43,107 bases of DNA, from positions 1-43,107 of the forward strand of contig JAGQIK010000074.1 in the NCBI GenBank assembly GCA_020431405.1, read 5' to 3'. How positions within the stretch are numbered: the stretch's first letter is position 1; each line of letters opens with the position of its first letter. The notes beneath the pieces are model-generated. The model was not told the origin of the DNA and made no database searches. It saw only the letters and a list, made by a program, of their open reading frames with translations. Below, piece by piece: positions 5,809 through 39,060 of the stretch. The DNA is from Myxococcales bacterium (GTDB taxonomy: Bacteria > Myxococcota_A > Polyangia > GCA-2747355). The position numbers and the translations under genes were made by a program.

Positions 5809-6420
5809 CTAGGGCTCGCCGGCTTCGAGGCTGCGGCCGCCGACCAGCACCACGCCGAGGTTGCGGTCTTCGGGCAGCTGAAACTGCACCCGCAACAGCT
5901 CGGTCTCTCGGGTCTTGCCGGCGAGGCCGACGATCACCGTGCCGTCGAGCAGGTCGACCGCGTTGAGCTGGTCGCCGATCTCGTCGAAGCCCGTCAGGTC
6001 GACGAGCATGTAGCGGAAGCGCTCGCGGTTGGAGGCGATCATCGCCTTGAGCTGGGGCACGCCAGCGCCCACCTCGCCGACCCACTTGGGGATCACGAGC
6101 GCCAGGTGGTCGTGGATGTACTTGATGTCGAAGATCGATCCCGACGCGTCATCGGCGCCGCCCGTCACCGGCAGCGCGGGCATGAAGACGTTGGCGTCGA
6201 TGAAGGCGACCTTGGCGCGCACCAGCTGGCTGAGGGCCATGGCGAGCTGGATCGCCAGCGGCGGCACGGCGACGTTTGCGGCGGCCGGCCAGAAACCGAT
6301 GGTCTTCGCGCCGCTGTCGCGCAGCGCGCGCGCGATGCGGATGCACTCGGCGTAGAGCGAAGGGTTGGCGTCGCCGTCGATGAGGTCGAAGTCGAGCCCC
6401 TGCGTTCCGCCGCTGCTCAT
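5809..6420 (-). CDS. BY-kinase/CpsD-like protein lacking a Walker A motif
   Basis: A 203-residue protein with the layout of the cytoplasmic P-loop domain of bacterial tyrosine kinases (CpsD/Wzc type). The strand before the P-loop (KTIGF), the helix after it (LAIQLAMALSQL), the Walker A' strand (KVAFIDANVFMPALP) and the later strand RYMLVDLTGFDEIGDQL are recognisable. The P-loop itself reads WPAAANVAVPP: there is no GxxxxGK[ST], so ATP binding in the normal way seems lost. The ATG at 6420 is chosen because of the -10-like box before it. It is divergent from the beta-barrel gene. Probably a regulatory or structural partner of the co-polymerase or the active kinase at 8985-10010; this role is inferred. 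Confidence 0.7.
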   Translation of the reverse strand: MSSGGTQGLDFDLIDGDANPSLYAECIRIARALRDSGAKTIGFWPAAANVAVPPLAIQLAMALSQLVRAKVAFIDANVFMPALPVTGGADDASGSIFDIKYIHDHLALVIPKWVGEVGAGVPQLKAMIASNRERFRYMLVDLTGFDEIGDQLNAVDLLDGTVIVGLAGKTRETELLRVQFQLPEDRNLGVVLVGGRSLEAGEP

Positions 6421-8984: not shown

Positions 8985-10010
8985 TCAGACCTCGAGGATC
9001 GCGACGCCCTTGAGCTTGTCCTGCTGCAGCTGGCGCATGGCGCGCCGCAGCGGCTTGATGCGCGACGTCGTGGCCCACATGGCGAAGAGCACGCCGTCGG
9101 CCGTGTCCTGCAGGACGTTGGCGTCGGCGTGGCCGAGCACGGCGGGGCCGTCGAGCACGATGTAGTCGTAGCCGACTTGCTTGAGCTGCGCGATGCCGCC
9201 TTCGAGCGCCGGCGTGTCGAGCACCTTGCGGCGCTTGAACGTGCGCGGGTCGGCGGCCAGCACGTGCAGCCACGGCGAGATGGCCGTGACCTTCCACGGC
9301 TTGTCGGGCGTGACCTTGTGCTCGTCGAGCTGCTCGAGCACGCAGTGGTCGGGCAAAAAGCCGAGCACCGCCGCGAGCCGCGGGCGTCGCAAGTTCGCGT
9401 CGACGAGCAGCACGCGTGCGCGCCCGCACTCGGCCATCGCCAGCGCGAGGTTGGCGGCGCAGGTCGTCTTGCCGTCTCGCGGCTCGGCGCTCGTGATCGC
9501 CACCGTGCGGGGATGGCCGCGCTCGACGAGCTTGTAGCGCAGCATGCGAAACGCCGCCGCGCGCGCGGACTTGGGCGCCAGGTGCATCACCAGCCGGTCG
9601 TCCTTGAGCTCGGCGGCGACGTTCTTGACCTCGATGGGGACGCGCCGAGGCGCCACGGCCGGCGCGACCTGCTGCGCGACCTTGTGCGCCTCACTCGACG
9701 CGGGCTTTCTGCGCGGCGCTGCCGACGCGATCAGCGTGCGGACAGCGAAGTCTTCGGGGAGCTCGTCTAGGTTGGGGACATCGTCGAGCTGCAGGTGCTC
9801 GGGCGCCATCGCCTCCGGCGCGTGCATGCGCACGTCGTCGTAGACGGCCTGCGCTTGCGCGGTGAAGACGCCCTCGGCGATGTCGGCCGAGAAGACCTCG
9901 CTGCCGTACGGATCGCTGGCGTCGGCGGCGTCAAGCTCGCCGCCGAGCGTGCCAGCCGCGGTCTTGCGCGGCTCCTGCTCGCCGCCGCCGCCTTTGTTGC
10001 CACCAGCCAC
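8985..10010 (-). CDS. BY-kinase (CpsD/Wzc kinase-domain type)
   Basis: A 341-residue cytoplasmic tyrosine autokinase that should pair with the co-polymerase encoded 12 bp upstream and control chain polymerisation. Residues 1-140 are a poorly conserved, acidic linker. The catalytic domain carries Walker A SAEPRDGKTT at about residue 174, Walker A' VLLVDANLRRP at about residue 200 and Walker B YIVLDGP at about residue 284. It stops directly after the last strand (GVAILEV), so the C-terminal tyrosine cluster that is normally autophosphorylated is missing. The GTG at 10010 is the first start after the upstream stop and is preceded by a purine-rich GGGGCGGAAG. Confidence 0.88.
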   Translation of the reverse strand: MAGGNKGGGGEQEPRKTAAGTLGGELDAADASDPYGSEVFSADIAEGVFTAQAQAVYDDVRMHAPEAMAPEHLQLDDVPNLDELPEDFAVRTLIASAAPRRKPASSEAHKVAQQVAPAVAPRRVPIEVKNVAAELKDDRLVMHLAPKSARAAAFRMLRYKLVERGHPRTVAITSAEPRDGKTTCAANLALAMAECGRARVLLVDANLRRPRLAAVLGFLPDHCVLEQLDEHKVTPDKPWKVTAISPWLHVLAADPRTFKRRKVLDTPALEGGIAQLKQVGYDYIVLDGPAVLGHADANVLQDTADGVLFAMWATTSRIKPLRRAMRQLQQDKLKGVAILEV

Positions 10011-10022
10011 GCTTCCGCCCCG

Positions 10023-11552
10023 CTACCCCTTGGGTGCGGGCTTGGCTTTGACCCGCGCCTTGACCGCCTTTTGCACCTGACGGCGCTCCTTGCGCGAGGC
10101 CTTGGGCACCTCGATCAATACGTCGACCATCTTGAGGCGCTCCAGATCGAGCCGGTCGTAGACGCGGTCGTCGACGAAGCCGAGGGCCAGCATCAACAGG
10201 CCGCCGATGACGATCGCAACGCCGACGCCGCCGATGACGATCACGCCGCGGCCCGCGCCCGATGGCCGGGTCGGCAGATAGGCCGGGTCGATGATCGACA
10301 GCTGCGTGCCCTTCTGCGCGCTGCCGCTCGACGTCTTGAGGATCGCCTTGAACTCGCGCTGCTCGAGCTTGATCGCGCGCTCGCGCGAGTCTTTGACCTC
10401 GCGATTGAGTCGCTGCCACTTGGTCTCGAGCGCGACGATGCGGCTGGCGCTGCTGAGCTTGGGCTGCTTCTTCTTGTTGCGCTTGTACTCGGCGATCTGC
10501 TTGATCAGGCTCGCCAGCTCGGTGCGCATACGCGCCTTGTCGCCCGAGGCGACCTTGACCGGCGCTCGCGCACGCTGCTTGGCGCGCACGTCGCGCATCA
10601 CGCGCGCCAGACGCGCCCTGGCCAGCCCGTAGCGCGCCTTGGCGGCCACGAGGTCGGGGTGGGCGCCGGTGAACTCGCGCCGCTTGGCGTCGTAGTTGGC
10701 GCGCGCCTCGCGAAGCTCGGTCTCGGCAGACTCCTTCTCACGCGCCAGCCGCGGATCGAGCGGCGTGCGCACGGGGACCGGCTTGTTCGCCAGCAGCGCG
10801 CGATAGCGCTGCGCCTGGCGCTCGAGCGCGCGCAGCGTGGGGTCGCCCTTCTTCTCGAGCATCTGCGTCGCGCGGATGGCGATACCGGCCGCCTTGGCGT
10901 CGACCTGCGCGAACGTCGGGTTCTGGCGGATGAACTCGGCCAGCTCCTTTTCCTTCTTGCTCAGTTGGTCCTGCACGCGCTTGCGCTCGGCGGCGATGAA
11001 GTCGAGCGTGGCCTGGCTCTGTTCGCGCCTGAGCGCCGCGTCCTGCGAGATCAGCGACGCCGCAAGATCCTTGGTCACCGCGTAGGCGAGGTCAGCCGTC
11101 GAGGCCTTGAAGTCGATGTGGTAGGTGTCGCCGCGGCCGATGCGGAAGCCGATCTTCTTGCGCATCTGATCGACCGCCTGCACCCACTGCTTCTTCGAGG
11201 TCATCTTGGGATAGAGCTTGTGCTTCTTGATGATCTCGCGCAGCTGCGGGCGCGCCAGCAGGAGCTCCTGCAAGCGCGCGCCGATCTCCTTGGCGCTGGT
11301 CTTGTTGGTGCCAGCGGCCACGTTGGTGACGACGGATTCGTCGATGGCTTGGCGGTAGAGGATCGTGACCTCGGACTTGAATATCCTCGGTCGGGTCAGC
11401 GCCAGCGCTACCGACAGACCACCGCCGACGATCACGATCAGCATCGCCTTGCCGAAGTGGCGAAAGGATCGACGGATCAGGGAAAGCACTCGGTGGAGCT
11501 GATCTCCACCGGTGAGCATCTCGGGGGCTTGTTGTGGATTGTTGGGCGTCAT
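10023..11552 (-). CDS. Polysaccharide co-polymerase, Wzz/GumC type
   Basis: A 509-residue inner-membrane protein of the polysaccharide co-polymerase family that sets chain length and forms the periplasmic bridge to the OPX protein. It has one membrane segment at about residues 36-55 (AMLIVIVGGGLSVALAL), a periplasmic Wzz domain, a long helical region rich in Arg, Lys, Glu and Ala (about 150-420) and a second membrane segment at about 434-459. The tail after it is basic and short, so the kinase is a separate protein (at 8985-10010). The ATG at 11552 is chosen over a GTG 45 nt upstream because a TATCAT box lies 10 nt before it. Third from last in the operon. Confidence 0.88.
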   Translation of the reverse strand: MTPNNPQQAPEMLTGGDQLHRVLSLIRRSFRHFGKAMLIVIVGGGLSVALALTRPRIFKSEVTILYRQAIDESVVTNVAAGTNKTSAKEIGARLQELLLARPQLREIIKKHKLYPKMTSKKQWVQAVDQMRKKIGFRIGRGDTYHIDFKASTADLAYAVTKDLAASLISQDAALRREQSQATLDFIAAERKRVQDQLSKKEKELAEFIRQNPTFAQVDAKAAGIAIRATQMLEKKGDPTLRALERQAQRYRALLANKPVPVRTPLDPRLAREKESAETELREARANYDAKRREFTGAHPDLVAAKARYGLARARLARVMRDVRAKQRARAPVKVASGDKARMRTELASLIKQIAEYKRNKKKQPKLSSASRIVALETKWQRLNREVKDSRERAIKLEQREFKAILKTSSGSAQKGTQLSIIDPAYLPTRPSGAGRGVIVIGGVGVAIVIGGLLMLALGFVDDRVYDRLDLERLKMVDVLIEVPKASRKERRQVQKAVKARVKAKPAPKG

Positions 11553-17475: not shown

Positions 17476-19254
17476 TTACTTGTCGAGCAGGGCGAAGAGT
17501 TTGTCGCGCGCCGCCTCGAGCTTGGCGGGCGGCTGGTCACATTCGTAGGCGTGCGGGAACAGCTCGCGCGCGATGGCGAGCGCCTTGGCGCGGTCCTTCT
17601 TGGCGGCGAGCACGAGGTACTCGTAGTCCTCCATGCCCTCGCGCGTGAGCTTGATGCGGATCGAGCTTACCGGGATGTGTGACTTGCCGCCGATGATCTC
17701 GGGCTTGCCCGGGTAGTACATCGTGCCGTCGCCGGAGCCGCTGAACTTGCACTGGCCGTTGGGGTTCCAGGCGGTGCTGAGCTGCTCGGCGACCTCGAAG
17801 TAGAGCTCGGCTTTGATGTCGTTGAGGAAGGCGACCCACGGGAAGGCGCGGTTCTGCACGGCCTTGCTGTCGATGACGCGGTTGGGCCAGCCGTGGTCGC
17901 TCTTGTTGGTCGAGGGCTGACCGCACGCGCCGCAGCCGTGCGACATGCAGGACTGATAGCCCCACAGCGCGCGGTTAGACTTTTTTGCCATCCACTTCTT
18001 GTAGAGCGGCAGGCGGTTCTTGGGGCCGCCCTTCTCGTCGGAGGGGTGCGGCTCGACCTCGTTGATCACCGGCACGAAGACGTCGATGACCCCCGCGACG
18101 CCGTGCTTTTCGGAGTCGCCGATGGAGGCCGTCATCAAGACGCGCGCCTTGGGGTCGATCTTGTGCAGGCGCTCGGCGGCGGCCTTGAACTTGTCCCACT
18201 CGTGCTGCTCGCCCGGCTCGTCGACCGGGTAGTAGATCAGGCGGTCGTAGAAGTTGTAGCGCTTGGCGAAGGCGAGCCACTGCGCCAGCTTGTTGTTGCC
18301 GTCGAGGCGCACCGTGGTGACCTTGGCGCCCTTGAGCCGCGTCTTGCCCGTGCCGTCGAGAAAGCCACCCATGTGCTCGAGGAAGATCTTCTGACTGGCG
18401 CCGAACGGCGGCTGGAAGGCGAGGGTGAAGATCGTGAAGCGGTGGTCGAGCGCGCTGCGAACGTACAGCTCGCGCATGCGATAGGCGGCCTTCTCGCTCC
18501 AGTTCTTGTCGCAGCTGTCGGTGCCCGTGTGCGCCTTGCAGGGCTGCGCGTAGTCCATGTTGAACGCCGAGGCCAGCGACGCCGTGGAGGGCAGCGTGAA
18601 GTTGCCGACGTGGAGCGCGATGGGGATGCTGCCGGCCTTGCGCGTGCCGGCGAGCACGACGAGCTCGCCGCGGTAGTCGCCCGGCTTGGCGTTCATCGGC
18701 ACCAGCACGTCGACCCACACCATGCGCGACTGTTTTTCGCGCGCGATGATCGGAAAGGCGCGTCGCTTCTCGCCATAGAAGACGTCGACGTCGGGGATCA
18801 GCGGATCCGGCCACGGCCCAGCGCCGCCCTCGTTGTTGGAGGCGACCTTGACCGTGTAGTAGGTCTCGCGAAAGAGCGTGACGTTGGCCGGCGGGATGGT
18901 GGCGCCGCCAGGGCCGGTGAGCGGCTTGGAGAGCGCCAGCGAGAGGCCCGGGATGTTGCCCGACTTGGCGCTCAGCAGCACCTGGAAGGACTCGAACTCG
19001 TTGCGGCCGGCCTTGATGCGCGCACCCGGCGCCACCGCGACGACCTGGCTCGGCCGCACCTTAATATTAGGGCCCACCACGCCGTAGATCAGGCGCGAGC
19101 GCAGGGCCGCGTCGGCGAGCGGGAACGTCTTGCCGATCACGCTCGACGAGCCGCCACCGCCACCGCCGCCCGGACCGTTCGTTTTGGAAGGACAGGCGCA
19201 CGCCAGCGTGGCGAGCAGCGCGAGCGCCAGGGCGCTTCTCGGGTGAAGAGGCAT
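17476..19254 (-). CDS. DUF4091/GH123-like lipoprotein
   Basis: A 592-residue lipoprotein. The signal peptide MPLHPRSALALALLATLACAC gives a lipobox LACAC; a Gly/Ser linker follows. An N-terminal beta-sandwich (about 45-230) precedes a barrel with YYPVDEPGEQHEW near residue 340 (the DEP motif of GH123/DUF4091) and the closing motif SIRIKLTREGMEDYEYL near 546. A Cys-rich stretch (SCMSHGCGACGQPS) in the barrel is not shared with the two paralogues. The ATG overlaps the flippase stop by one base (TGATG), so they are translationally coupled. It is likely anchored in the outer membrane or periplasm and acts on the polysaccharide made by this operon; substrate unknown. Confidence 0.85.
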   Translation of the reverse strand: MPLHPRSALALALLATLACACPSKTNGPGGGGGGGSSSVIGKTFPLADAALRSRLIYGVVGPNIKVRPSQVVAVAPGARIKAGRNEFESFQVLLSAKSGNIPGLSLALSKPLTGPGGATIPPANVTLFRETYYTVKVASNNEGGAGPWPDPLIPDVDVFYGEKRRAFPIIAREKQSRMVWVDVLVPMNAKPGDYRGELVVLAGTRKAGSIPIALHVGNFTLPSTASLASAFNMDYAQPCKAHTGTDSCDKNWSEKAAYRMRELYVRSALDHRFTIFTLAFQPPFGASQKIFLEHMGGFLDGTGKTRLKGAKVTTVRLDGNNKLAQWLAFAKRYNFYDRLIYYPVDEPGEQHEWDKFKAAAERLHKIDPKARVLMTASIGDSEKHGVAGVIDVFVPVINEVEPHPSDEKGGPKNRLPLYKKWMAKKSNRALWGYQSCMSHGCGACGQPSTNKSDHGWPNRVIDSKAVQNRAFPWVAFLNDIKAELYFEVAEQLSTAWNPNGQCKFSGSGDGTMYYPGKPEIIGGKSHIPVSSIRIKLTREGMEDYEYLVLAAKKDRAKALAIARELFPHAYECDQPPAKLEAARDKLFALLDK

Positions 19255-20906
19255 CAGCTCTTGTCGGGTTCCTTCTTGTCGTCGTCGTCGTCGGCCTTCG
19301 GCGCGTCGTCGTCGGCTTTCGGCTCGTCGGTCTCGGCTTCGGCCTTCGGCGCGTCGCCTTCGCCCTCGGCGCGCTCGCCTTCGCCCTCTTCGCCCTCTTC
19401 GCCCTCTTCCTCGTCCTCGCCACCACCGCCGCGACGCAGGATCGCCGTCTTGACCAGGCGCAGGAACTCGCGGCTGACCGTCGGCGCCAGCACCAGCGCC
19501 GAAGGCACGAACACGATGGCGCCGATGCCGACCTCGGCGATGAGCACCACCACGCGCAGGAACTTGCTCGGGCCGCCAGCCCAGCCGATCTGCATGAACA
19601 GGTAGTGCGAGCCGATCACCGCCGCCGCCATCGGAACGCAGGCAAACAGCGGCGGGATCATGCCCCACGTCAGCTTGCGCATGGAGATGTTGGCCGCCGA
19701 GCGCGCCATCCACAAAGACAGGATCGCGTTGGCGCCGAAGGCGATGCCCGGCGCGGCGCAGGTCCACAGCGGCCCGAAGCGCTGCAGCACCACGATGCTC
19801 AGCAGCAGCATGCCGATCTTGGTGATCTCGAGCATCATCACCGTGCGCGGCCGATTGAGCACCTGCAGGAACGAGTTGACCGTCCAGCCGATGGGGCGCA
19901 CCACCGACAGCGTCGAGAGCACCGCGACCATCGGCCACATCGAAGCCCACTCCTCGTTGAAGATCGCGGTGGTCAGCGCGTTGGCGACCGATCCGAGGCC
20001 GACGGCGAGCGGAAACATCACCAGCGCCAGCAGCGCGCTGGCGCGGATCAGCGCCTGACCGCGCTCCTCGTCGTCCATGCGCGCGAACGACGGCAGCAGC
20101 ACGTCGCCGATGTGCTCGCCGACGGTGGTCGCCGGGATGTCAGCGAGGTTGTAGGCGAGCGCGTACTGGCCGGCGGTCGCCGAGCCGAAGTAGCGCGCCA
20201 TCAACAGGTTGTCCCAGGTGCGCGCGAACGAGCCCGCCGCGTGGCCGACGGCGAGCGGCACGCCGAAGGCGAAGATCTTCTTCGTCAGATCCATCGAGAG
20301 CTTGTGCGGCTTGAGCCACTCGCTCCACTTCACGGCGAGCGCCATCCAGATGAACGACACGCCCCACTGCCCGATGTTGCCCCACACGATGGCGTAGCCG
20401 CCGAAGTTCTGCATGGCGAGCACGACGCCGAGGGCGGCGTACAGAAACTGCGCCGCGCTGCTCGAAGCGGCGATGGTGCGAAAGCGCAGGTCGCGCGCGA
20501 GGATGCGTTCAGGACCGGTGGCGATGCGTTCGATGGCGAGCACCGCTGCCATGCCGGGGATGTACTTGACGGCGCCCTTGGAACCGAAGAACGGCACGAT
20601 CTGGCGCCGGAAGACGACCACCGCGGCGAGCGCCGGCAAGCCGATGCCGAGGTGATAGACCGTGCAGTGCCACGCCGCGATGGCACCAGAGGCGGGCTTG
20701 GCGACGATGTAATTGAAGATGCCGAATCGCGTCAGCTCGTCCACCGTGATGACGATGGCGCTGGCGACGGCCGACACGTCACCGTAGTCGGCCTTGGCGA
20801 TATAGCGAGTGAGCACCAGTGTGGCGACCACGCCGATGACGCGGCCGCCGACACTGCTCAAGATCGTCCAGGCGGCTCCGCGAACCGCCTTGTGTCCGAT
20901 CGACAT
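19254..20906 (-). CDS. wzx: Polysaccharide flippase (Wzx type) with acidic C-terminal tail
   Basis: A 550-residue inner-membrane protein of the MOP/Wzx family that should flip undecaprenyl-linked repeat units to the periplasm. It has 12 or more hydrophobic helices, starting with AAWTILSSVGGRVIGVVATL, and the family stretch GGYAIVWGNIGQWGVSFIW. After the last helix (about residue 490) it carries about 58 residues that are almost entirely Glu, Asp, Gly, Lys, Ala and Pro (GEDEEEGEEGEEGEGE, then repeated PKADDD), which is not normal for Wzx. The ATG has GAGGAA 9 nt upstream. It is the first gene of the long minus-strand operon and divergent from the OPX gene. Confidence 0.88.
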   Translation of the reverse strand: MSIGHKAVRGAAWTILSSVGGRVIGVVATLVLTRYIAKADYGDVSAVASAIVITVDELTRFGIFNYIVAKPASGAIAAWHCTVYHLGIGLPALAAVVVFRRQIVPFFGSKGAVKYIPGMAAVLAIERIATGPERILARDLRFRTIAASSSAAQFLYAALGVVLAMQNFGGYAIVWGNIGQWGVSFIWMALAVKWSEWLKPHKLSMDLTKKIFAFGVPLAVGHAAGSFARTWDNLLMARYFGSATAGQYALAYNLADIPATTVGEHIGDVLLPSFARMDDEERGQALIRASALLALVMFPLAVGLGSVANALTTAIFNEEWASMWPMVAVLSTLSVVRPIGWTVNSFLQVLNRPRTVMMLEITKIGMLLLSIVVLQRFGPLWTCAAPGIAFGANAILSLWMARSAANISMRKLTWGMIPPLFACVPMAAAVIGSHYLFMQIGWAGGPSKFLRVVVLIAEVGIGAIVFVPSALVLAPTVSREFLRLVKTAILRRGGGGEDEEEGEEGEEGEGERAEGEGDAPKAEAETDEPKADDDAPKADDDDDKKEPDKS

Positions 20907-21059
20907 GCGTATTGATTCCTCGGGTTGCTCGCAGGACAGCGAAGGAGCGAAAACGGTATCACAAACGCGCGATTTTGGACTAGCGGGGTCGTGCGTCCTT
21001 CGTTAGCCTACGACCCTTCATTGAATGTAGTTTCACGCCCAAAGCAGGATTTCGATCTG
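20907..21059. promoter_or_regulatory. Divergent control region between flippase and OPX genes
   Basis: These 153 bp must hold the promoters of both export operons. A dyad gggtcgt (20986-20992) / acgaccc (21010-21016) with 17 bp between the arms, and a wider pair cgaagga (20940-20946) / tccttcg (20996-21002), are candidate operators. No -10/-35 pair is convincing by eye. Confidence 0.35.
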
Positions 21060-21665
21060 ATGAGCAAGCTACGCCTCTCTGCGGTTCTCATCGCCGCGCT
21101 GCTGTTGCTGTCTGCCTGCCCCGCGCCGGTCTGCAACTACAACTACAAGCGCGAACCGGATCCGCGTAAGCCTGGCGCCGAATACCAGATCGGCATCGGC
21201 GACAGCTTGCGCATCAACGTCTGGAAGAACCAGGACCTCTCGACACCGGCGATCGTGCGCCCCGACGGCACGATCACCATGGCGCTGATCGGCGACATCA
21301 AGGCGGCCGGGCGCCATCCGTCGCAGCTCAAGGCCGAGATCTCGATGCGCCTGAAGAAGTTCCTCGCCACCGTGCCCCCGGTGACCATCGCGGTCGATCA
21401 GGTGCGCAGCTACCGCTTCACCGTCAGCGGTCAGGTGGCGCGCGGCGGACAGTTCTCGCCCAACAAGTACGTCACCGTCAGCGAGGCCATCGCGCTGGCG
21501 CAGGGCATGACGCGCTTTGCCGACGCCGACAACACGGTGCTGATCCGCGTGCGCGCCAACGGCAAGATCACGCGCATCCCCATCTGTTGGAAACAGATCG
21601 AGCTCGGCAAGCGCCCAGACATGGACATCGTGATGCTCGCCGGCGACCGTTTGCACGTTCCCTAA
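21060..21665 (+). CDS. Short Wza-like polysaccharide export (OPX) lipoprotein
   Basis: A 201-residue periplasmic export protein. The ATG at 21060 gives a signal peptide with lipobox LLSAC (Cys20). Residues 42-113 form the Poly_export (PES) domain (YQIGIGDSLRINVWKN, IVRPDGTITM, VPPVTIAV) and 119-199 an SLBB domain closing with LAGDRLHVP. It ends there: there is no further SLBB domain and no C-terminal amphipathic helix, which forms the outer-membrane pore in E. coli Wza. Composite translocons made of such a short OPX plus a separate beta-barrel are known from Myxococcus xanthus; the barrel at 6479 is the candidate partner. It heads an operon with the ACP (20 bp later) and ligase genes. Confidence 0.88.
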   Translation: MSKLRLSAVLIAALLLLSACPAPVCNYNYKREPDPRKPGAEYQIGIGDSLRINVWKNQDLSTPAIVRPDGTITMALIGDIKAAGRHPSQLKAEISMRLKKFLATVPPVTIAVDQVRSYRFTVSGQVARGGQFSPNKYVTVSEAIALAQGMTRFADADNTVLIRVRANGKITRIPICWKQIELGKRPDMDIVMLAGDRLHVP

Positions 21666-21937: not shown

Positions 21938-21959
21938 GGCCCGAGCGGGAGCCACGCAC

Positions 21960-23564: not shown

Positions 23565-23565
23565 T

Positions 23566-23719: not shown

Positions 23720-23725
23720 TTGGGC

Positions 23726-23731
23726 TACAAT
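23726..23731 (+). promoter_or_regulatory. -10-like TACAAT, 6 nt before the ATG at 23738
   Basis: GGCTACAATGT precedes the start codon with exactly 6 nt between hexamer and ATG, identical in geometry and sequence context to the paralogue at 28446. A TTGGAG at 23704-23709, inside the palindromic element, could be the -35 (16 bp spacing). Confidence 0.5.
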
Positions 23732-23737
23732 GTGTGC

Positions 23738-25441: not shown

Positions 25442-25495
25442 TCGTCAGCGCGCGAGCACGCCAAGAAAACGCGCGCACCGCGAGTAGTACAGGCA

Positions 25496-26665
25496 ATGCA
25501 CCCGCGCTGTCTCGTGCTCGCCACCCTGTGTTGCTCGCTCTGCGCGGCGTGTAGCAACTCGCGGCTTGGCGAGCAGTCGGCGACAAAGTCTGCTGCGAGC
25601 CGCCACGAGCCGCGCCTGATCTGGCGCCGCGGCCTCACGCGCGGCGGCCCGTTCGACGTGCCGCCGGCAAAGGAGCGCGAGATCGACCGCCAATGGCGCC
25701 ACGGGCGCTGCGGCGATCCCCCCAAGACGCCGTACTCGCCGGCGTGGCTGGCCCTCGAGAAGCGCTTTCGCTGGACCCATCGGCTCGATCGCTACGGCGC
25801 GCGCTATCACCACATCGCGCGTTCGTCCGACGGACGTGCGCTCTACGCCACCGGCGTGTCCGAGCTGGTCGGCGTCATCACCCGCCTCGACGACAAGGGG
25901 CGCGTGCTGTGGCGCCATCGCTTCGGCGAGGCAAAGCCCAAAGGCCCAGACCCCGCTGCGACCTCCTGGGCGCGCGGCAAGCACGTCGCCGTCTCGCCCG
26001 ATGGCAAGACCGTCGCGCTGGCAGGCTCCTTCTGGGAGCGCGCCGATATCGCGCCCGGGCCGGCCATAGCCATAGCGCAGGCCGCCGGACGCGCAGACCT
26101 CTTCGTCGCCGCCATGCGCAGCGACGGCAAGTTCCTCTGGGCACGCGCTTACAGCGGCACCGAAGAGAACGCACAGATCCGCGTGGCCATCGGCGCCGAC
26201 GGCAACGTGGTGGTCGCCGCGACGTTCGCCGGCGCGATCCGCCTCTGTGGCCGGCGCACCGTGCGGCCGACGCGTCGCTCGGATGTCTTCGTCACGAAGT
26301 TGCGCGCACGCGACGGCCGCTGCCTGTGGGCCAAGACGTGGGCGCCGAAAGAGCCCGCGACTGTCGACAACGTGTTCGTCGACAAAAGCGGCGCCGTGGT
26401 CGCGATGGTCGACGTGCCGCCCGAGCGCGTAGCGCTGCGATACCTCGCCGACGGCAGCGTTGACGCGCGCAGGCACGCGTCGCCTCCCCGACGCGCGCAC
26501 GCGGCCCCGTCCGAGCGCTTGCCCGCCAGCGAAGGCGGTCTCGAGGTCAAGGACGCGCTCGTGCTCGGTGCAGGGGTCGTTGTCGCTGGCGCGTTCAAGT
26601 GCTTGGTGGTCGGGCAGCACTTTCCGCGCGAAGATCCGCGCGGTCTTATCGGGCTGCTGAGGTGA
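25496..26665 (+). CDS. Beta-propeller-like lipoprotein
   Basis: A 389-residue lipoprotein of unknown function. The signal peptide MHPRCLVLATLCCSLCAAC ends in a lipobox with Cys19. The mature protein has repeated blocks of the type VAVSPDGKTVALAGSF, VAAMRSDGKFLWARAYSG, VAIGADGNVVVAATFAG and FVDKSGAVVAMVDV, as in WD/SBBP-like propellers of secreted proteins, with about six blades. It ends with little downstream of the last blade. Only 54 bp separate it from the SGNH-like gene in the same orientation. A long reading frame on the opposite strand (25445-26806) is a GC-bias shadow, since this strand has the signal peptide and the blade motifs. Confidence 0.75.
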   Translation: MHPRCLVLATLCCSLCAACSNSRLGEQSATKSAASRHEPRLIWRRGLTRGGPFDVPPAKEREIDRQWRHGRCGDPPKTPYSPAWLALEKRFRWTHRLDRYGARYHHIARSSDGRALYATGVSELVGVITRLDDKGRVLWRHRFGEAKPKGPDPAATSWARGKHVAVSPDGKTVALAGSFWERADIAPGPAIAIAQAAGRADLFVAAMRSDGKFLWARAYSGTEENAQIRVAIGADGNVVVAATFAGAIRLCGRRTVRPTRRSDVFVTKLRARDGRCLWAKTWAPKEPATVDNVFVDKSGAVVAMVDVPPERVALRYLADGSVDARRHASPPRRAHAAPSERLPASEGGLEVKDALVLGAGVVVAGAFKCLVVGQHFPREDPRGLIGLLR

Positions 26666-26716
26666 GCGGCTAGCCGAGCGGTGGGGGGATTGTTGCGCCG
26701 CCCGCGTGCCGTCGCG

Positions 26717-26722
26717 TATCGT
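26717..26722 (+). promoter_or_regulatory. -10-like TATCGT, 10 nt before the ATG at 26733
   Basis: TATCGT is followed by 10 nt without Shine-Dalgarno and the ATG, as at 3181. Confidence 0.35.
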
Positions 26723-26732
26723 GCCTCGCAGC

Positions 26733-27710
26733 ATGTCCAGCAAAACTCGCGGTCGCACGCTCGCCATCCTGATCGTAGGGATGATCCTCGGTGCCGGCGC
26801 CGGCATCGTCTTCTACAAGCGCGGAATGCCGTTTGTCGGCGTGACGGGCCAGTGGGGCGTCGGCATCTACGTCGGCACGGGGCCTGACAAGCCTTTCACG
26901 CCGGGCAACATCAAAAACCCCGTCCTGACGATCAAAGACGTCACCGACATGGACGCCGACTTTGTCGCCGACCCCTTCATGGTCAAGGAAGGCGACACCT
27001 GGTACCTGTTCGTCGAGGTCCTCAACAACGCCGACGGCAAGGGCGATCTGTCGGTGGCGACGAGCAAGGACGGCATCCACTTCAAGTACCAAAAGAAGGT
27101 GCTCGACGAGAAGTTCCACCTCTCCTATCCGCACGTCATGAAGTGGAAGGGGCAGTGGTGGATGGTGCCCGAGTCCTACGAGGACAAGTCCATTCGCCTC
27201 TACAGAGCGACCAAGTTCCCCTTCGAGTGGAAGCTGCACAAGAAGCTCGTCACCGGCGCGCCGTTTGTCGACTCGTCGCTGATCGAGCACGACGGCAAGT
27301 GGTGGATGTGGTCGTCGATCACCGGCAACAACGTGCTGGTGCTCTACTACGCCGACGCGCTCGACGGGACGTGGCACAAACATCCGCAGAACCCGCTGCG
27401 CCTCGGCGATCCCGAGTACGCGCGCCCCGGCGGCCCGATCGTCAAGTACAACGGCCGGCTGATCCGCTACGCGCAGGACTGTTTCCCGCGTTACGGCATG
27501 GCGATCCGCGCCTTCGAGGTGACGAAGCTGACGACCACCGAGTACGCCGAGAAGCTGCTCAACGACGGCAAGCCGCTGATCGGCGCCACCGGCAGCGGCT
27601 GGAACGCGCTCGGCATGCACCAGCTCGACCCGCATCAGATCGCGCCTGGCAAGTGGATCGCCGCCGTCGACGGCATCTACAACGCGCGCCGCTACGGGCT
27701 CGCGTACTAG
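26733..27710 (+). CDS. Membrane-anchored five-bladed propeller, GINT1-N-like
   Basis: A 325-residue protein with an N-terminal membrane anchor at about residues 7-28 (TLAILIVGMILGAGAGIVFY) and a five-bladed beta-propeller of the GH43/GH32 superfold. The pattern FVADPFMVKEGDTWYLFVEV, LSYPHVMKWKGQWWMVPES, PFVDSSLIEHDGKWWMW, ARPGGPIVKYNGRLIRYAQD and RYGMAIRAFEV resembles the N-terminal domain of glucosamine inositolphosphorylceramide transferase-like proteins, which in bacteria also occurs in polysaccharide clusters. Activity is not established for that domain; binding or trimming a glycan in the periplasm is likely. The ATG is chosen by the adjacent TATCGT box and the anchor. It is followed by the PPTase gene after 11 bp. 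Confidence 0.7.
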   Translation: MSSKTRGRTLAILIVGMILGAGAGIVFYKRGMPFVGVTGQWGVGIYVGTGPDKPFTPGNIKNPVLTIKDVTDMDADFVADPFMVKEGDTWYLFVEVLNNADGKGDLSVATSKDGIHFKYQKKVLDEKFHLSYPHVMKWKGQWWMVPESYEDKSIRLYRATKFPFEWKLHKKLVTGAPFVDSSLIEHDGKWWMWSSITGNNVLVLYYADALDGTWHKHPQNPLRLGDPEYARPGGPIVKYNGRLIRYAQDCFPRYGMAIRAFEVTKLTTTEYAEKLLNDGKPLIGATGSGWNALGMHQLDPHQIAPGKWIAAVDGIYNARRYGLAY

Positions 27711-27721
27711 CGAACGGGCGC

Positions 27722-28390
27722 TTGGCCGACCGCGCGCAGCTCGAAGCGCTCTTTCCTGCCGCGGCTGTGCTCGTCGTCGCCGACGCGTGGATGTGGGAAG
27801 GCTTCGACCAGCTCTTTGACGAAGAGCGCGCGCTCGGCGAACGCGCCGTACAGAAGCGCCGCCGCGAGCTCGCCGCCGGCCGACACGCGGCGCGCGCCGC
27901 GCTCGAGCAGCTCGGCTACGCGCCCGCGCCGATCGCGCGCGGCACGCACGGCATGCCGCAGTGGCCCGCCGGCGCCTGCGGCAGCATCACGCACTGCAAG
28001 GGCTTCGCCGGCGCCGTCGTCGCGCACGCGCGCGAGGTGCGCTCGCTCGGCTTCGACGCCGAGCAAGCCGAGCCGCTCAAGCCGCAGCTCATCGATCTGA
28101 TCCTCTCTGCCAGCGAGCGCGCCGCGCTCGGCCCGCAGCCGCGCCGCACCGACTGGGGCAAGGTCGCCTTCAGCTGCAAAGAGGCGTTCTACAAGGCCTA
28201 CTACCCGCACGCGCGCCAGGTGATCGATTTTCTGCAGGTGCACATCGAGCTCACCTCCGGCGCCGATGCTGGCGAGTTTCGCATCGAGCTCGTCGACGAC
28301 GCCGTGCCGAGCGCCGCGGGCCTGCGCCGCTTCGAGGGCCGCTGGCTGTGTGACGGAGATCGCGTTTATTCGGCCTGCGCGGTGCTGTAG
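27722..28390 (+). CDS. 4'-phosphopantetheinyl transferase (Sfp/EntD type)
   Basis: A 222-residue enzyme that should transfer phosphopantetheine from CoA to a carrier-protein serine, most simply Ser40 of the ACP at 21686. Family motifs are GSITHCKGFAGAVVA near residue 88, SLGFDAEQAEPL near 108 (metal-binding Asp112 and Glu114) and KVAFSCKEAFYKAYYP near 147 (Lys153, Glu154, Lys158). The length matches EntD-like enzymes. No ATG is available near the proper N-terminus; TTG at 27722 is the best start, 11 bp after the preceding gene, and the exact start is uncertain. It is cotranscribed with the GINT1-N-like gene. Confidence 0.85.
   Translation: MADRAQLEALFPAAAVLVVADAWMWEGFDQLFDEERALGERAVQKRRRELAAGRHAARAALEQLGYAPAPIARGTHGMPQWPAGACGSITHCKGFAGAVVAHAREVRSLGFDAEQAEPLKPQLIDLILSASERAALGPQPRRTDWGKVAFSCKEAFYKAYYPHARQVIDFLQVHIELTSGADAGEFRIELVDDAVPSAAGLRRFEGRWLCDGDRVYSACAVL

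Positions 28391-30058: not shown

Positions 30059-30062
<4 letters not shown>
28458..30062 (+). CDS. SGNH-like surface protein, copy 2, with MYXO-CTERM-like tail
   Basis: A 534-residue paralogue of the protein at 23738, colinear from the signal peptide (ending AHAQ, residue 24) through the carbohydrate-binding-like sandwich and the SGNH domain. It has the same Ser-to-Gly change (SLGDGVMEG, Gly222), ELGRND and DSANPSHPHAAGH. The linker differs: Gly-rich GGDGPGGG units replace GSDGGVNP, while FDVGFNPNPPNADG, the CC pair (GGGCCAIG), the helix and the Arg6 end are kept. Its stop codon overlaps that of the convergent DUF4091 gene by 4 bp. Two independent copies keeping the missing nucleophile argue for a real, non-classical function. 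Confidence 0.85.
29745..29872 (+). repeat. 24-bp Gly-rich tandem repeats in the linker of copy 2
   Basis: About five imperfect 24-bp units encode GGDGPGGG. The repeat length equals that of copy 1 but the sequence is different, pointing to independent expansion or replacement of the linker. Confidence 0.65.
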
Positions 30063-32032
<1,970 letters not shown>

Positions 32033-32116: not shown

Positions 32117-33160
32117 GTGGCTCAAGTGTATCCACCGCTTCGAAACCTGGCAGCTCGCTCGCTGTACCTCAGCGGCACCCTCGACCTTTGGCGTTCCGCC
32201 GCCACGCGCCTCGACGCCGTGATCAAACGCGGCCGCGTCGCGCGACGGCTCCAGCGCGGCACGCTGGTCTTCATGTTCCACCGGCTTGTCGAGGAGCCGA
32301 ACCCGTTTCGTCCAGGTTACCCCGTCGATCAGTTCGAGTTCTTCTGCCGCCACCTCGCCGAGCACTACGAGGTGCTGCCGCTGTGCGAGCTCGAGCGACG
32401 CCGCGTAGCACACACGCCTTCGGGCGCGGTGGGCATCTCGTTTGACGACGGCTACGCCGACAACTACGAGCTGGCCTTCCCGATCCTGCGCAAATACAAC
32501 CTGCCCGCCACCGTCTTCATCACCACCGGATGTATGGAAGGCAAGCGGCTGCTCTGGACATCGCGTCTGAGCTGGGTCGTCGAGCACGCGCGCGCGCCGG
32601 AAGGACGCACCGTGCCCGTGCTCGGCCTCGAGCTCGACCTGTCGTCGCGCGACGCGAGGGCGCGCTCCAACGCGCTGCTCACCGAGCGCATGAAGGACAT
32701 CACGCACGTCGAGCGCGAGCAGATCATCGACCACCTAGCGCTCGAGCTCGGCGTCGAGGACTTCAGCGAGCTGCATCGCACGGAGATGCTGACCTGGGAG
32801 CAGCTGCGCGAGATGGACCGCAATGGCTTTCAGGCGGGCGGCCACACCGTGCACCACACCATCCTGAGCAGAATCTCGCCGGGGCTGTTGCTGCGCGAGG
32901 TCGCGGAGTGCAAAGAGGAGCTCGAGGGCTACCTCGACCGGCGCATCGAAACCTTCGCCTACCCCAACGGCGACCCCAACGACTTCACCGACGAGGTGGT
33001 CGAGACCGTGCGCCGCACCGGCTACAGGGCGGCCTACACGACGGTCTTCGGCGCCAACGGCGCGCGGCAGCACCCGCATCAGCTGCGCCGCGTGACGGTC
33101 TATGGGGCGGACCAGGCAGAGATCGCGCTGCAGATCGAGCGCTTCTTTTACATGGTCTAG
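32117..33160 (+). CDS. Polysaccharide deacetylase, NodB family
   Basis: A 347-residue carbohydrate esterase 4 protein expected to remove N- or O-acetyl groups from the polymer or its repeat unit. The NodB core has GISFDDGYADNYELAFP (motif 1, with the metal-binding Asp pair) near residue 108, ATVFITTGCMEG, GFQAGGHTVHHTILS (motif 2, HxxxH) near 238 and FAYPNGDPNDF (motif 3) near 278. The N-terminus (VYPPLRNLAARSLYLSG) is not a clear signal peptide, so a cytoplasmic or membrane-associated site is likely. The GTG at 32117 is chosen because GGAGAG lies 6 nt upstream; in-frame GTGs at 32078 and 32093 lack this. Only 84 bp separate it from the divergent DUF4091 gene. Confidence 0.85.
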   Translation: MAQVYPPLRNLAARSLYLSGTLDLWRSAATRLDAVIKRGRVARRLQRGTLVFMFHRLVEEPNPFRPGYPVDQFEFFCRHLAEHYEVLPLCELERRRVAHTPSGAVGISFDDGYADNYELAFPILRKYNLPATVFITTGCMEGKRLLWTSRLSWVVEHARAPEGRTVPVLGLELDLSSRDARARSNALLTERMKDITHVEREQIIDHLALELGVEDFSELHRTEMLTWEQLREMDRNGFQAGGHTVHHTILSRISPGLLLREVAECKEELEGYLDRRIETFAYPNGDPNDFTDEVVETVRRTGYRAAYTTVFGANGARQHPHQLRRVTVYGADQAEIALQIERFFYMV

Positions 33161-33320: not shown

Positions 33321-35741
33321 ATGAGCCGCCGTACGCCGAGCACTGTGACCAGCAAGCCAACCAAACAAAGCCCGCGTCCCACGGGGCTGTCTGTCGTCCG
33401 AACGCCGGCGGGGATTGGTCCCGACCTCGTCGGCTCCGTGGTGCAGCGGCACCGCATCGAAAAGCTGCTCGGCGAGGACGCGCTGGGCGTGATGTATCGC
33501 GCCCGCCACGAGATCCTCGGCAGCGCCGTGGCGCTCAAGGTGCTGCACGCCCATCACACCGAAAACCGCGAGCTGATCGCGGCGTTTCAGTACGAGGCGG
33601 CGTCGTCGGCCTACCTGACCGTGCGCCACGCGGTGCCGGTGAGCGACATCGGCTACACCGAAGACGGCCGCATGTTCTACTCGCGCGCGCTCGTGCAGGG
33701 CCAGCGCCTCAGCCAGCGGCTGCAGGAGGGCGGCGCGATGCCGCTCGGCAAGGCGCTGACGGTGGCGCGCCAGGTCGGCGAGACGCTGGTCGAGATGCAC
33801 CTCAGGGGCCTGGTGCATCGCGCGCTCGAGCCTTACCGCGTCTACGTCATCGAGGCGGGCGGACGCATCGACACGCGCCTGATCGACGTTGGCTGTGGTC
33901 GGCTGGCGGCGCTGTTCGAGGGCGAGAGCAGCCCCTATCGTCCGCCGGAGCAGATCCCGACGGCGCCATCCAAGCCCGCGTTCGATGTCTACGCGTTGGC
34001 TGCGCTGACCTACGAGATGCTCACGGGTGTGCCCCCGACGCCCGAGGAGCGCGACCCGCGCGCATACCAGCCGCGCATTCCGATCGGCGTGGCATACACG
34101 ATCGCGGCGGCACTCGATCCGGCCCCCGAGGAGCGGCCGCCGACGGTCATCGCGTTGCTCGAAGGGCTGGTGGCCGACGCGCTCGACGCCGAGTTCGACG
34201 CCCTCGATGGCTACGGCGACGCTTCGTCGCTGCGCCCGCGCGTCGCGCCGCGCTCGCTGTACCAGGCCGACATGCTGCCCACGCAGCAGCACCGCAGCGT
34301 CGAGCGGCAGGCGGTCGTGCACGTCCACGACGTCAAGCCCGAGCTGATCTCGTCGCCCGTGCTCGAGCCGCAGCAGGGCCGCGGCCGCCACACGCCGGTG
34401 CCTGTTCCCGTGCCGGTGCCTGTCCCGGTGCCCGTGCCCGTGCCGCAAGCCGAGGCCGAGATGGAGCCGGTGCCCGAGCCGGTGCCGGCGCCCGAGCCCG
34501 AGGCGCCGCGTGCGCGTGGGCCCGTGCCCAAGAAGGTCGAGGCCAAGGCCCTGCCCGTGGCCAAGACCGAGCCGCCGGCTGACGACGACGAGATCGCTGA
34601 CGACGACGGCAGCGAGCCAACGCAGCCGTCGGCCGAGCAGCTGAAGGCCGAGAAGGCTGCCGCCGAGAAGGCCGAGAAGGCCGAGAAGGCGAAAGCCGAG
34701 GCCGAGAAAGCCGAGAAGGCGAAGGCCGAGGAGGCCGAGAAGGCCGAGAAGGCGAAGGCTGAGGAGAAGGCCAAAGCCGAAGAGAAGGCCAAAGCCGAAG
34801 CCGAAGAGAAGGCCAAGGCCGAAGAGAAGGCCAAGGCCGAAGAGAAGGCCAAGGCCGACGAGAAGGCCAAGGCCGACGAGAAGGCCAAGGCCGACGAGAA
34901 GGCCAAGGCCGAAGAGAAGGCCAAAGCCGAGGAGAAGGCCAAGGCCGAGGAGAAGGCCAAAGCCGAGGAGAAGGCCAAGGCCGAAGAGAAGGCCAAGGCC
35001 GCCGCGGCCGAGGACGCTGCCGTCGTCGACGAGCCGCTCGACCTCGACCTCAAGATCAAATCGGGTCTCAGCCCCGCCAAGATCGTCGCCGCGTCGATCG
35101 CGTGCGCGGTGGTGGTGATGCTCGCGGCGTGGGCCCTCAAGTCCGGCGACAACAAGAAGCCGACCACGCCCACCGCGCCGACGACCCGCAAGCAGCAGCC
35201 TGCGACCCCGAGCAAGACCACCAACGTGGTGACGCCGCCGTCCGTCACACCGTCCAAGGGCACCGAAGAGCCCCCGGCGCACGTCGACACGCCCGCGCCC
35301 AAAGTCGCGCCGCGCCACGCGCGCAAGCCGCTTGCCAAGCCCACGCGCCGGCCGAGGAAGCCCGTTGCTCGTCCCGCGAAGCCGCACAGGCCGCGCGTAG
35401 CCAAGCCCCAGCCGCCCGTGACCAAGCCGGCCAAGCCAGCCGTCGCGGCCAAGCCGGCCAAGCCGGCTATCGCGACCAAGCCGGCAGTCGCCAAGCCGGC
35501 CAAGCCCACGCGCGTCGACGAGCCGCCTCCGACCAAGCCCGACGCGCCCGCCGTCGCCAAGAAGCCAGCGCCGATCAAGCCGGCCGCGCCCGCCGCCAAG
35601 AAGCCGGCGGCCAAGAAGCCGGGCCTGCGCACGCCGAGCTGGGCCACCGACAGCAAGAAGCCGGCGAAGCCGGCCAAGCCGGCCAAGAAGCCTGCGCCCA
35701 AGAAGCAGCCCGGCATCAAAAAGCCCGGCTGGGCCGACTAG
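33321..35741 (+). CDS. Transmembrane serine/threonine pseudokinase with long charged helix
   Basis: An 806-residue protein. Residues 38-310 are a eukaryotic-like Ser/Thr kinase fold: Gly-rich loop GEDALG, Lys73 in VALKVL, Glu92 in the C-helix. The catalytic loop reads HRALEP (166-171) instead of HRDLKP, and the metal loop is DVG, so the catalytic base Asp and following Lys are gone. Next come a Pro-Val repeat (about 360-375), an acidic/Pro region and about 120 residues of AEEKAK repeats that should form a single charged helix. A membrane helix (AKIVAASIACAVVVMLAAWA, about 586-605) leads to a periplasmic tail rich in Lys, Pro and Ala. It may sense or tether rather than phosphorylate. Confidence 0.85.
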   Translation: MSRRTPSTVTSKPTKQSPRPTGLSVVRTPAGIGPDLVGSVVQRHRIEKLLGEDALGVMYRARHEILGSAVALKVLHAHHTENRELIAAFQYEAASSAYLTVRHAVPVSDIGYTEDGRMFYSRALVQGQRLSQRLQEGGAMPLGKALTVARQVGETLVEMHLRGLVHRALEPYRVYVIEAGGRIDTRLIDVGCGRLAALFEGESSPYRPPEQIPTAPSKPAFDVYALAALTYEMLTGVPPTPEERDPRAYQPRIPIGVAYTIAAALDPAPEERPPTVIALLEGLVADALDAEFDALDGYGDASSLRPRVAPRSLYQADMLPTQQHRSVERQAVVHVHDVKPELISSPVLEPQQGRGRHTPVPVPVPVPVPVPVPVPQAEAEMEPVPEPVPAPEPEAPRARGPVPKKVEAKALPVAKTEPPADDDEIADDDGSEPTQPSAEQLKAEKAAAEKAEKAEKAKAEAEKAEKAKAEEAEKAEKAKAEEKAKAEEKAKAEAEEKAKAEEKAKAEEKAKADEKAKADEKAKADEKAKAEEKAKAEEKAKAEEKAKAEEKAKAEEKAKAAAAEDAAVVDEPLDLDLKIKSGLSPAKIVAASIACAVVVMLAAWALKSGDNKKPTTPTAPTTRKQQPATPSKTTNVVTPPSVTPSKGTEEPPAHVDTPAPKVAPRHARKPLAKPTRRPRKPVARPAKPHRPRVAKPQPPVTKPAKPAVAAKPAKPAIATKPAVAKPAKPTRVDEPPPTKPDAPAVAKKPAPIKPAAPAAKKPAAKKPGLRTPSWATDSKKPAKPAKPAKKPAPKKQPGIKKPGWAD
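34396..34446 (+). repeat. Pro-Val dipeptide-coding repeat
   Basis: About eight tandem CCNGTG hexamers encode PVPVPV in the cytoplasmic linker of the pseudokinase, giving a stiff extended segment. Confidence 0.6.
34650..35004 (+). repeat. 18-bp repeats encoding AEEKAK helix
   Basis: Many near-identical 18-bp units (gccgaagagaaggccaag type) encode AEEKAK or ADEKAK. The alternating charges suit a stable isolated alpha-helix between kinase fold and membrane. Unit number may vary between strains. Confidence 0.8.
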
Positions 35742-35809: not shown

Positions 35810-37351
35810 ATGACTAAATATCGCGCGCTCGCGCTGGTCCTGCTCATCGCGCTCGCCGGCTGCTCCTCGGACAGCTCCTCCTCCGACAGTCGCGTCTCCC
35901 CGGATATCCTGCTGCCGGACGGCAGCCCCCCGCCGCCGCCGAGCGGCGCGGATCCCGCCGGGCTGAGCAGCGACTCGCTCTCCGTCCAGCCTTGCGGCGG
36001 CGCCGTGCTGTGCGTGCGCGCGGGTGCCAGCGGTGGCGACGGCTCGGCAGCGTCGCCCTTCGGCACCATCGGCGCGGCCATCGCCGCCGCCAGCGACGGC
36101 GACACGCTGCAGATCGCCGGCGGCACCTACCGCGAAAACGCCGTCGTCAGCAGCAAGGCGCTCGCGCTGCTGGGCGGCTTCAGCGACGACTTCTCGAGCC
36201 GCGTGCCAGCCACCAACGTCACCACCGTCGAGGGTGTCGGCGGCGAGGCCGCTGTCGCGCTGATCGACGCCGGCAAGAGCACGGTGGAGGGCCTGCGCAT
36301 CACCAAGGGCACGGGCAACGAGCTCGAGAAGCAGTACTTCATCCTCGGCGGCGGCCTCTTCGCGCGCGGCGGCGAGCCGCAGGTGATGCACAACCTCATC
36401 GAGGGCAACGACATCATCAGCAGCCACAACAACCCCGAGAACCAAGGCGGCGGCGTCTTCTTCGATGGCTGCGACAGCGTGCGCTTCGTCGGCAACGTCG
36501 TGCGCAACAACCTCAGCGGACGCGGCGCGCTCGGCGCGAGCAACGGCAACGTGCACATCGAGGGCAACGTCGTCATCGACAACACGGCAGAAGGTGATCA
36601 CGGCGGGGGTATCTACGTCGCCGCGGCGAGCGTCAACGTGGTCAACAACCTCGTCGAGCGCAACAAGGTGCTCTCCAAAGACAGCCCGGGCGGCGGCTGG
36701 GGTGCGGGCGTCCTGATCTACAACGAAGGCACCGTGGCCACGCTTAGCGGAAACGTCGTGCGTGACAACTACGCGGCGGCCGCCGGCTCGGGCGTGTTCA
36801 TCGACGACGGCGCCGTGGCGACGCTCAGCAACGAGCTCTACGCCAACAACCAGTGCGCCCAGGACGGCGGCACCGGCCTCTACGTCGACGGCGCCGACGG
36901 CGGCATCGGCACGACGGTGCGCGCTTTCAACGTCACGATCGTCAACCACCGCTGCAACACTGGCCTCAAGGGCGCGATCTACGTCGAGCACGACTCCAGC
37001 CTCACACTGGCGAACGCCATCGTCTGGGGCAACGGCGGAAACGACTTCATCGTCGACAGCACCTCGAAGCTCGAGGTCCGCTACTCGATCGTCGAGCAGG
37101 CGTCGATCCAAGGCGACGGCGTGATCAAGCAAGACCCTCTGTTCGCCGAAGGGGCGAGCGACTTTCACCTGCGCTCGCGCGCCGGCCGCTGGGACGAGCA
37201 GAAGGGCGACTGGGCCACCGACAGCGAAGACAGCCCCGCCATCGACAGCGGCGATCCGGCAGATCCCGTCAAAGACGAGTCGGCACCCAATGGCGGTCGC
37301 ATCAATATGGGCGCCTACGGCGGCACCGCCCGGGCGAGCCGCTCGCAGTAA
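35810..37351 (+). CDS. Right-handed parallel beta-helix lipoprotein
   Basis: A 513-residue paralogue of the protein at 15925. The signal peptide MTKYRALALVLLIALAGC gives Cys18 as lipid site; a Ser/Asp/Pro linker follows. PCGGAVLCV, GDTLQIAGGTYRENAVV and LRITKGTGNELEKQYFILGG mark the beginning of the beta-helix, with many G-N-V-V rungs to about residue 430, then IDSGDPADP and INMGAYGGTARASRS at the end. It is followed 71 bp downstream by a further copy in the same orientation. Resembles polysaccharide-lyase folds, but no catalytic set can be assigned; likely a surface protein acting on or binding glycan. Confidence 0.85.
   Translation: MTKYRALALVLLIALAGCSSDSSSSDSRVSPDILLPDGSPPPPPSGADPAGLSSDSLSVQPCGGAVLCVRAGASGGDGSAASPFGTIGAAIAAASDGDTLQIAGGTYRENAVVSSKALALLGGFSDDFSSRVPATNVTTVEGVGGEAAVALIDAGKSTVEGLRITKGTGNELEKQYFILGGGLFARGGEPQVMHNLIEGNDIISSHNNPENQGGGVFFDGCDSVRFVGNVVRNNLSGRGALGASNGNVHIEGNVVIDNTAEGDHGGGIYVAAASVNVVNNLVERNKVLSKDSPGGGWGAGVLIYNEGTVATLSGNVVRDNYAAAAGSGVFIDDGAVATLSNELYANNQCAQDGGTGLYVDGADGGIGTTVRAFNVTIVNHRCNTGLKGAIYVEHDSSLTLANAIVWGNGGNDFIVDSTSKLEVRYSIVEQASIQGDGVIKQDPLFAEGASDFHLRSRAGRWDEQKGDWATDSEDSPAIDSGDPADPVKDESAPNGGRINMGAYGGTARASRSQ

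Positions 37352-37422: not shown

Positions 37423-39060
<1,638 letters not shown>

Follow-up and report, generated by a model that had tools for sequence, protein, structure and literature searches.

Dead kinases are increasingly recognised as scaffolds in the envelope pathways of bacteria. By the definition given in PMC12599244, a pseudokinase lacks at least one of the beta3 Lys, the HRD Asp and the DFG Asp. The same source describes the MviN pseudokinase domain, a substrate of PknB that recruits FhaA and forms a back-to-back dimer as in some bacterial kinases; MviN belongs there to the class ActPs3, defined by complete degradation of all three canonical motifs. EssB/YukC is described in the same pages as a transmembrane pseudokinase that serves as a scaffold of type VII secretion (PMC12599244). 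In M. xanthus, pseudokinases account for 11 of 99 STPKs according to PMC6791715, and EcpK is presented in PMC12004946 as a BY pseudokinase and EPS scaffold, for which binding to its PCP is the proposed mode of action.

In this study, we analysed a window of 43,107 nucleotides, one contig of the 11.2-Mb genome of a Myxococcales bacterium (JAGQIK010000074.1). We found that an exopolysaccharide locus in this window holds a gene for a membrane-anchored Hanks-type kinase domain that has lost catalytic residues, and that no kinase match occurs in the related loci of other genomes.

Results

A Hanks-type kinase domain that lacks several catalytic residues

The gene at 33321-35741 (Table 1) has alternative starts at TTG 33264 and GTG 33438, a high coding score and a GC3 of 0.9. 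The Pkinase match of its product (1e-15) lies beyond chance, with 58.3 bits over a cut-off of 31.7. The closest solved structures by sequence in the PDB are chains of PknA and StkP (5e-18 to 1e-17), and the protein thus belongs to the Hanks-type (eukaryotic-like) protein kinase fold. The confidence of an AlphaFold model from the single sequence was too low for use (mean pLDDT 42.6).

The motif columns were fixed by alignment with 63 other kinase domains. As the earlier note had read from the letters, the column of the HRD Asp holds Ala168 (GCG, 33822-33824); the change of Lys to Glu170, the replacement of DFG by DVG (189-191) and the retention of the ATP-anchoring Lys73, which sits in VALK in the beta3-Lys column, are likewise borne out by the sequence and the alignment. 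Further losses came to light. The catalytic-loop Asn, a metal ligand in kinases, has become Arg173. The Gly-loop reads G51-E-D-A-L-G56, its middle Gly gone, and the activation segment from D189 to E210 is shortened to 22 residues, as compared with 24-62 residues (median 31) in other kinases of the genome, where a simple motif pattern located the segment in 72 of 74. A further gap follows the TGxPP motif. The fold residues Lys73, Glu92, APE Glu210 and the alpha-F Asp are retained. An assembly or frame error behind the lost motifs was rejected, given that several separate motifs are altered and the frame is open, and sequencing error is unlikely because the changes are several and independent. 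With these catalytic residues lost, the product is unlikely to transfer phosphate.

Table 1. Features of the pseudokinase, its neighbourhood and its nearest paralogue
Feature	Position	Strand	Basis or remark
Hanks-type pseudokinase CDS	33321..35741	+	806 aa, no internal stop, ATG start assumed
Hanks-type kinase domain, residues 46-283	33456..34169	+	Pfam PF00069 (Pkinase)
Degenerate Gly-rich loop LGEDALG, residues 50-56	33468..33488	+	motif reading, alignment
Lys73, beta3 Lys, kept (in VALK)	33537..33539	+	motif reading, alignment
Glu92, alpha-C Glu, kept	33594..33596	+	alignment
HRALEPYRV replacing HRDxKPxNx, residues 166-174	33816..33842	+	alignment
DVG (189-191) and shortened activation segment, residues 189-210	33885..33950	+	alignment, motif count
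Pro/Val-repeat linker	34394..34502	+	tandem repeats
Charged A/E/K helix (predicted), residues 443-559	34647..34997	+	composition; 18-bp tandem array (AEEKAK)
Single transmembrane segment, residues 588-606	35082..35138	+	hydropathy 2.56
Basic Lys/Pro/Ala tail, residues 607-806	35139..35738	+	200 aa, net +39
Polysaccharide deacetylase, upstream neighbour	32126..33160	+	PF01522; 160-bp gap to 33321-35741
Right-handed beta-helix protein, downstream neighbour	35810..37351	+	PF13229; 68-bp gap
Second right-handed beta-helix protein	37423..39060	+	PF13229; 58% to 35915-37345
Wza-like export protein	20925..21665	+	PF02563
Wzx-like flippase	19254..20906	-	PF13440
PCP/chain-length determinant	10023..11489	-	NCBIfam: XrtA-system type, weakly EpsV; below curated cut-offs
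BY-kinase-like ATPase, Walker-like motifs, without C-terminal Tyr cluster	8985..10010	-	motifs, NCBIfam
BY-kinase-fold protein, 203 aa, without Walker A	5809..6420	-	hhalign
Second pseudokinase C336	G000:C336:1254-2048 (L058)		gene runs off contig

Predicted charged helix, membrane span and basic tail

The charged segment, for which the earlier note had given 120 residues, counts 117 (A42 K37 E35 D3), so that its figure was about right. A DNA pattern coding for KAKAEEKAKA was matched 9 times genome-wide, always in this gene (reversed-pattern control, 0). Favourable i/i+4 charge pairs number 37 against 12 unfavourable ones, and this pairing is beyond chance, since 2000 shuffles gave a mean of 23.2 and a maximum of 36. 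Residues 480-559 consist of 13 array units together with an insert of two residues. The units depart from their consensus at 12 places, every one a third codon position (pS 0.277, pN 0.026); they were chosen by a pattern that permits only Glu/Asp variation at one place, and only the insert lay outside it. The confinement of the changes to third positions suggests that the protein has been maintained. The AEEKAK segment would plausibly form a stiff single helix of about 175 Å. We rejected a coiled-coil reading, as the 6-residue repeat appears to offer no heptad, and likewise discounted the hits of the helix in NCBIfam (TolA, EntC and others), which are low-complexity and far under their cut-offs. 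A literature search on charged single helices in bacterial kinases yielded no usable precedent.

Basic tails behind a membrane span are ordinary among the kinases of this genome. Among 34 own-genome membrane kinases with a TM segment and a tail of at least 60 aa, the tail is net positive in 33 and reaches at least +0.10 per residue in 17. The tail of the pseudokinase is the densest, with +0.20 per residue, a value that none of these 34 attains. By analogy with other kinases the tail is presumably periplasmic or otherwise extracytoplasmic; the positive-inside rule argues against a periplasmic placement of so basic a segment. The tail closes with two similar motifs, KKPGLRTPSWATD and KQPGIKKPGWAD (35590-35738, plus strand).

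The surrounding exopolysaccharide locus

As judged from their sequences, the surrounding genes form a Wzx/Wza-type exopolysaccharide locus. It comprises Wza, Wzx, PCP and BY-kinase-like genes, glycosyltransferases, two GH123 and three beta-helix proteins, together with two GDSL proteins, a polysaccharide deacetylase, an AMP-ligase and a PPTase. The BY-kinase-like ATPase has no Tyr in its last 50 residues, and its relative in genome G002 is built alike. The product of 5809-6420 aligned to the profile of the neighbouring BY kinase in hhalign (prob 93.8, E 1.8e-7) and has a 38% relative in G002; it may be a BY pseudokinase of the EcpK type, a likeness of kind drawn from the description of EcpK.

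The pseudokinase gene runs in the same direction as the deacetylase and beta-helix genes beside it. These genes may form an operon, but one terminator-like match on the plus strand lies at the 3' end of the deacetylase gene (33125-33142), in a scan that gave 9 matches in all against 5.3 expected.

Several other features of the locus are worth recording. A third GH123-like gene, cut by the contig end, probably occupies the minus strand at 1-1719, because the plus-strand ORF there (25-1719) matches its relatives only antisense, to GH123. The GH123-like protein of 30059-32032 (minus strand) carries a C-terminal MYXO-CTERM sorting signal (28.1 bits, cut-off 20) and is on this account probably a surface-displayed enzyme. 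The product of 26706-27710 (plus strand) matches the N-terminal domain of glucosamine inositolphosphorylceramide transferase 1 at 5e-59, which is unexpected in a bacterial polysaccharide locus. In addition, 21686-28390 (plus strand) places the AMP-ligase, the phosphopantetheinyl transferase and the two GDSL proteins among polysaccharide genes, and a small possible carrier protein, its name a guess, is encoded at 21686-21937. This set might serve acyl decoration of the polymer.

Related loci and the search for an orthologue

Related loci were found in G002 (GH123 51%, PCP-like 38%, BY-kinase-like 44%, deacetylase 45%, Wza 52%) and in G001 (GH123 53%, deacetylase 45-46%). Of the neighbouring genes used to trace synteny, the deacetylase gave the informative relatives; for the beta-helix neighbour a single clear relative appeared in other genomes, at 37% in G001. 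No kinase match was found in G002, over a 38-kb contig from base 2000, nor in the G001 fragments, where absence is weak evidence because the pieces measure only 3.7 and 7.7 kb. Four G002 ORFs flagged by a crude motif scan gained no support in tblastn with the pseudokinase. Hence, the pseudokinase gene does not belong to the core of this system.

No orthologue was found among 317 genomes of the class, the best other match listed being 40% identical. A search of 59 genomes, its own included, returned kinase matches in all of them, and none listed besides the gene itself exceeded 39% identity. A pattern search for kinase-domain relatives in named genomes gave 118 matches, none of them confirmed. 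In its own genome, the HRALEP pattern matched 7 times including this gene, the other 6 not being kinases (reversed-pattern control, 12). The returned matches included no other genome of the same genus.

A second pseudokinase and the frequency of dead kinases

Within the genome, the closest relative is C336 (36% identical), itself a pseudokinase: HRD reads HGS (HGSVRP), DFG reads GVG, and the activation segment is equally short. A universal-stress-like protein, named by a guess from its sequence, is encoded upstream of C336. In a 64-row tree the two pseudokinases pair at 96/91, both being long branches that drew a program warning. A branch with 99/95 support sets the two and seven HRDLRP-type kinases apart from the other 55 rows. 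In separate trees, C336 falls inside the HRDLRP group at 100/100. The window gene, in the tree without C336, falls outside; constraining it inside lowers lnL by 6.05 and is not rejected (p-AU 0.306). Its branch is very long (3.12 and 4.66 changes per column in two trees).

The HRDLRP kinases carry an N-terminal zinc ribbon and mostly a WFAEG-like motif before the TM segment, and their tails are basic, Ser/Gly-rich or TPR. An own-genome member, C695 (HGDIRP), lies near a TatA gene, and a G003 member (HSDLRP, DLG) near a TatC gene. Residues 1-45 of the window pseudokinase contain no Cys and thus no CxxC...CPxCG ribbon.

The genome has at least 154 Pkinase matches (150 of 278 candidates scored). 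The HRD Asp is missing in one of the 63 best-matching kinase domains, namely C336, and in 4 of 74 other own-genome kinases (C336, C18, C568 and C86), a set that is not a random sample. It was drawn from the strongest Pfam hits, the best pseudokinase-profile matches, 20 further profile hits and 40 from the Pfam list, and four of the initial 78 rows were removed because they duplicated a protein already present. Taken with the 11 of 99 STPKs reported for M. xanthus in PMC6791715, these counts indicate that a kinase of this dead sort is unremarkable here.

Discussion

The earlier note had proposed a membrane pseudokinase that reports on the envelope to a cytoplasmic partner without phosphorylation. 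It had also suggested that the helix would hold the kinase fold at a fixed distance from the membrane and that the basic tail could bind peptidoglycan or an acidic exopolymer. The interpretation holds in part: a membrane pseudokinase for which phosphotransfer is unlikely, and a plausible stiff charged helix; envelope sensing and tail binding are conjectural. Our own proposal, tentative and a little short of an even call, is that the protein is a lineage-specific membrane pseudokinase acting as a phosphotransfer-free docking platform or switch for the export machine or for an active kinase. The presumably inactive domain would lie in the cytoplasm, joined by the Pro/Val linker and the long stiff helix to one membrane span, with the basic Lys/Pro-rich tail putatively extracytoplasmic. 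The gene would have arisen in, or moved into, the exopolysaccharide export locus, and the membrane-bound platform may bind an export component, such as the PCP, the BY-kinase-like ATPase or the flippase, or an active kinase.

Several observations favour this platform or switch. Catalytic residues are lost while fold residues remain, and C336, its closest relative in the genome, has likewise become a pseudokinase and shares the short loop. Moreover, the locus holds Wza, Wzx, PCP, BY-kinase-like, glycosyltransferase, deacetylase and beta-helix genes, and the adjacent genes are co-directional across gaps of 160 and 68 bp. Precedents exist in EcpK (PMC12004946) and in MviN and EssB (PMC12599244). 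On the other side, Lys73 and Asp189 of the DVG remain, so that nucleotide binding or unusual catalysis is possible; no orthologue was found, and the related loci of G002 and G001 have no kinase match. Location alone is no proof of a role in polysaccharide export.

The large kinase complement of this genome would also suit a pseudokinase that modulates one of the active Ser/Thr kinases, as a pair or as a phosphorylated docking platform like MviN, with no specific tie to export. The back-to-back dimer of the MviN domain and its phosphorylation by PknB, described in PMC12599244, fit such a role. However, the gene lies inside a polysaccharide locus, between deacetylase and beta-helix genes, and we hold this alternative to be unlikely, if deserving of serious weight. 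Non-canonical use of ATP, whether as a weak kinase or through AMPylation or glutamylation like that of SelO and SidJ, appears improbable. Lys73, Glu92 and Asp189 are kept, and some pseudokinases are reported to have gained new chemistry (PMC12599244), but a metal ligand is lost with the change of Asn to Arg173, and a degraded Gly-loop and a shortened activation segment likewise speak against it. A decaying gene without function, intact through recency and the scarcity of stop codons in GC-rich DNA, would account for the very long branch and the missing orthologue, and an 825-aa antisense ORF makes the open frame weak evidence in this DNA, yet the high coding score and GC3, repeat units that differ only at third positions and the retention of fold residues alongside the loss of catalytic ones render it most improbable.

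Returning to the platform or switch, a bolder version, which we regard as a long shot, is that the locus runs by binding alone. Each of its three kinase-like proteins (8985-10010, 5809-6420 and 33321-35741) lacks part of the phosphotransfer apparatus, and the Hanks-type protein could be a lineage-specific ruler or tether between a cytoplasmic complex and the cell wall, with the 175 Å helix as spacer.

Among known systems, the Zn-ribbon/HRDLRP membrane kinases (own-genome C695, G003 L020, G052 L010 and others) appear to be, with C336, the closest kinase-domain group. They share the kinase-linker-TM-tail layout, and KSGD directly follows the TM segment in both G003 L020 and the window protein, which is suggestive only. 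Unlike the latter, they have the CxxC ribbon, mostly a WFAEG/WYAEG-like motif, an intact HxD and often TPR tails. In the literature covered, including PMC8141879, a Hanks-type pseudokinase has not been reported from an exopolysaccharide locus, a weak negative since subscription papers lay mostly outside the search. Dead kinases as such are already known from this bacterial group: the M. xanthus pseudokinase STPKs, as PMC6791715 describes them, are likewise myxobacterial kinase homologues without a catalytic residue.

With Ala168 in place of the HRD Asp and with Lys73 and Asp189 kept, the window protein is a pseudokinase by the definition given above. It differs from the GLW pseudokinases, which have GLW for HRD and Leu or Trp for the beta3 Lys, in its HRA and its Lys73. 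Like MviN/MurJ, as described in PMC12599244, it is a membrane protein with a Hanks-type pseudokinase domain that may serve an envelope glycan pathway, and it shows the activation-loop deletion (22 residues) and the C-terminal TM segment (588-606) often seen in ActPs3. However, MviN has lost all three motifs and carries its domain in a large transmembrane protein, whereas Lys73 and the DVG Asp are kept here and there is one TM span. EssB/YukC resembles it, by the description in the same pages, as a TM pseudokinase with a short activation loop and a degraded Gly-loop, but is a Firmicutes protein with all three motifs degraded (PMC12599244). EcpK, according to PMC12004946, is likewise a dead kinase encoded with a polysaccharide export system; it has a BY-kinase fold without Walker motifs, for which the candidate in this window is the 5809-6420 product, and is a stand-alone PCP partner, whereas the pseudokinase is Hanks-type and membrane-anchored. 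The window protein is a clean candidate with which to ask whether polysaccharide export has recruited Ser/Thr-kinase folds as non-catalytic parts, as it has the BY-kinase fold of EcpK.
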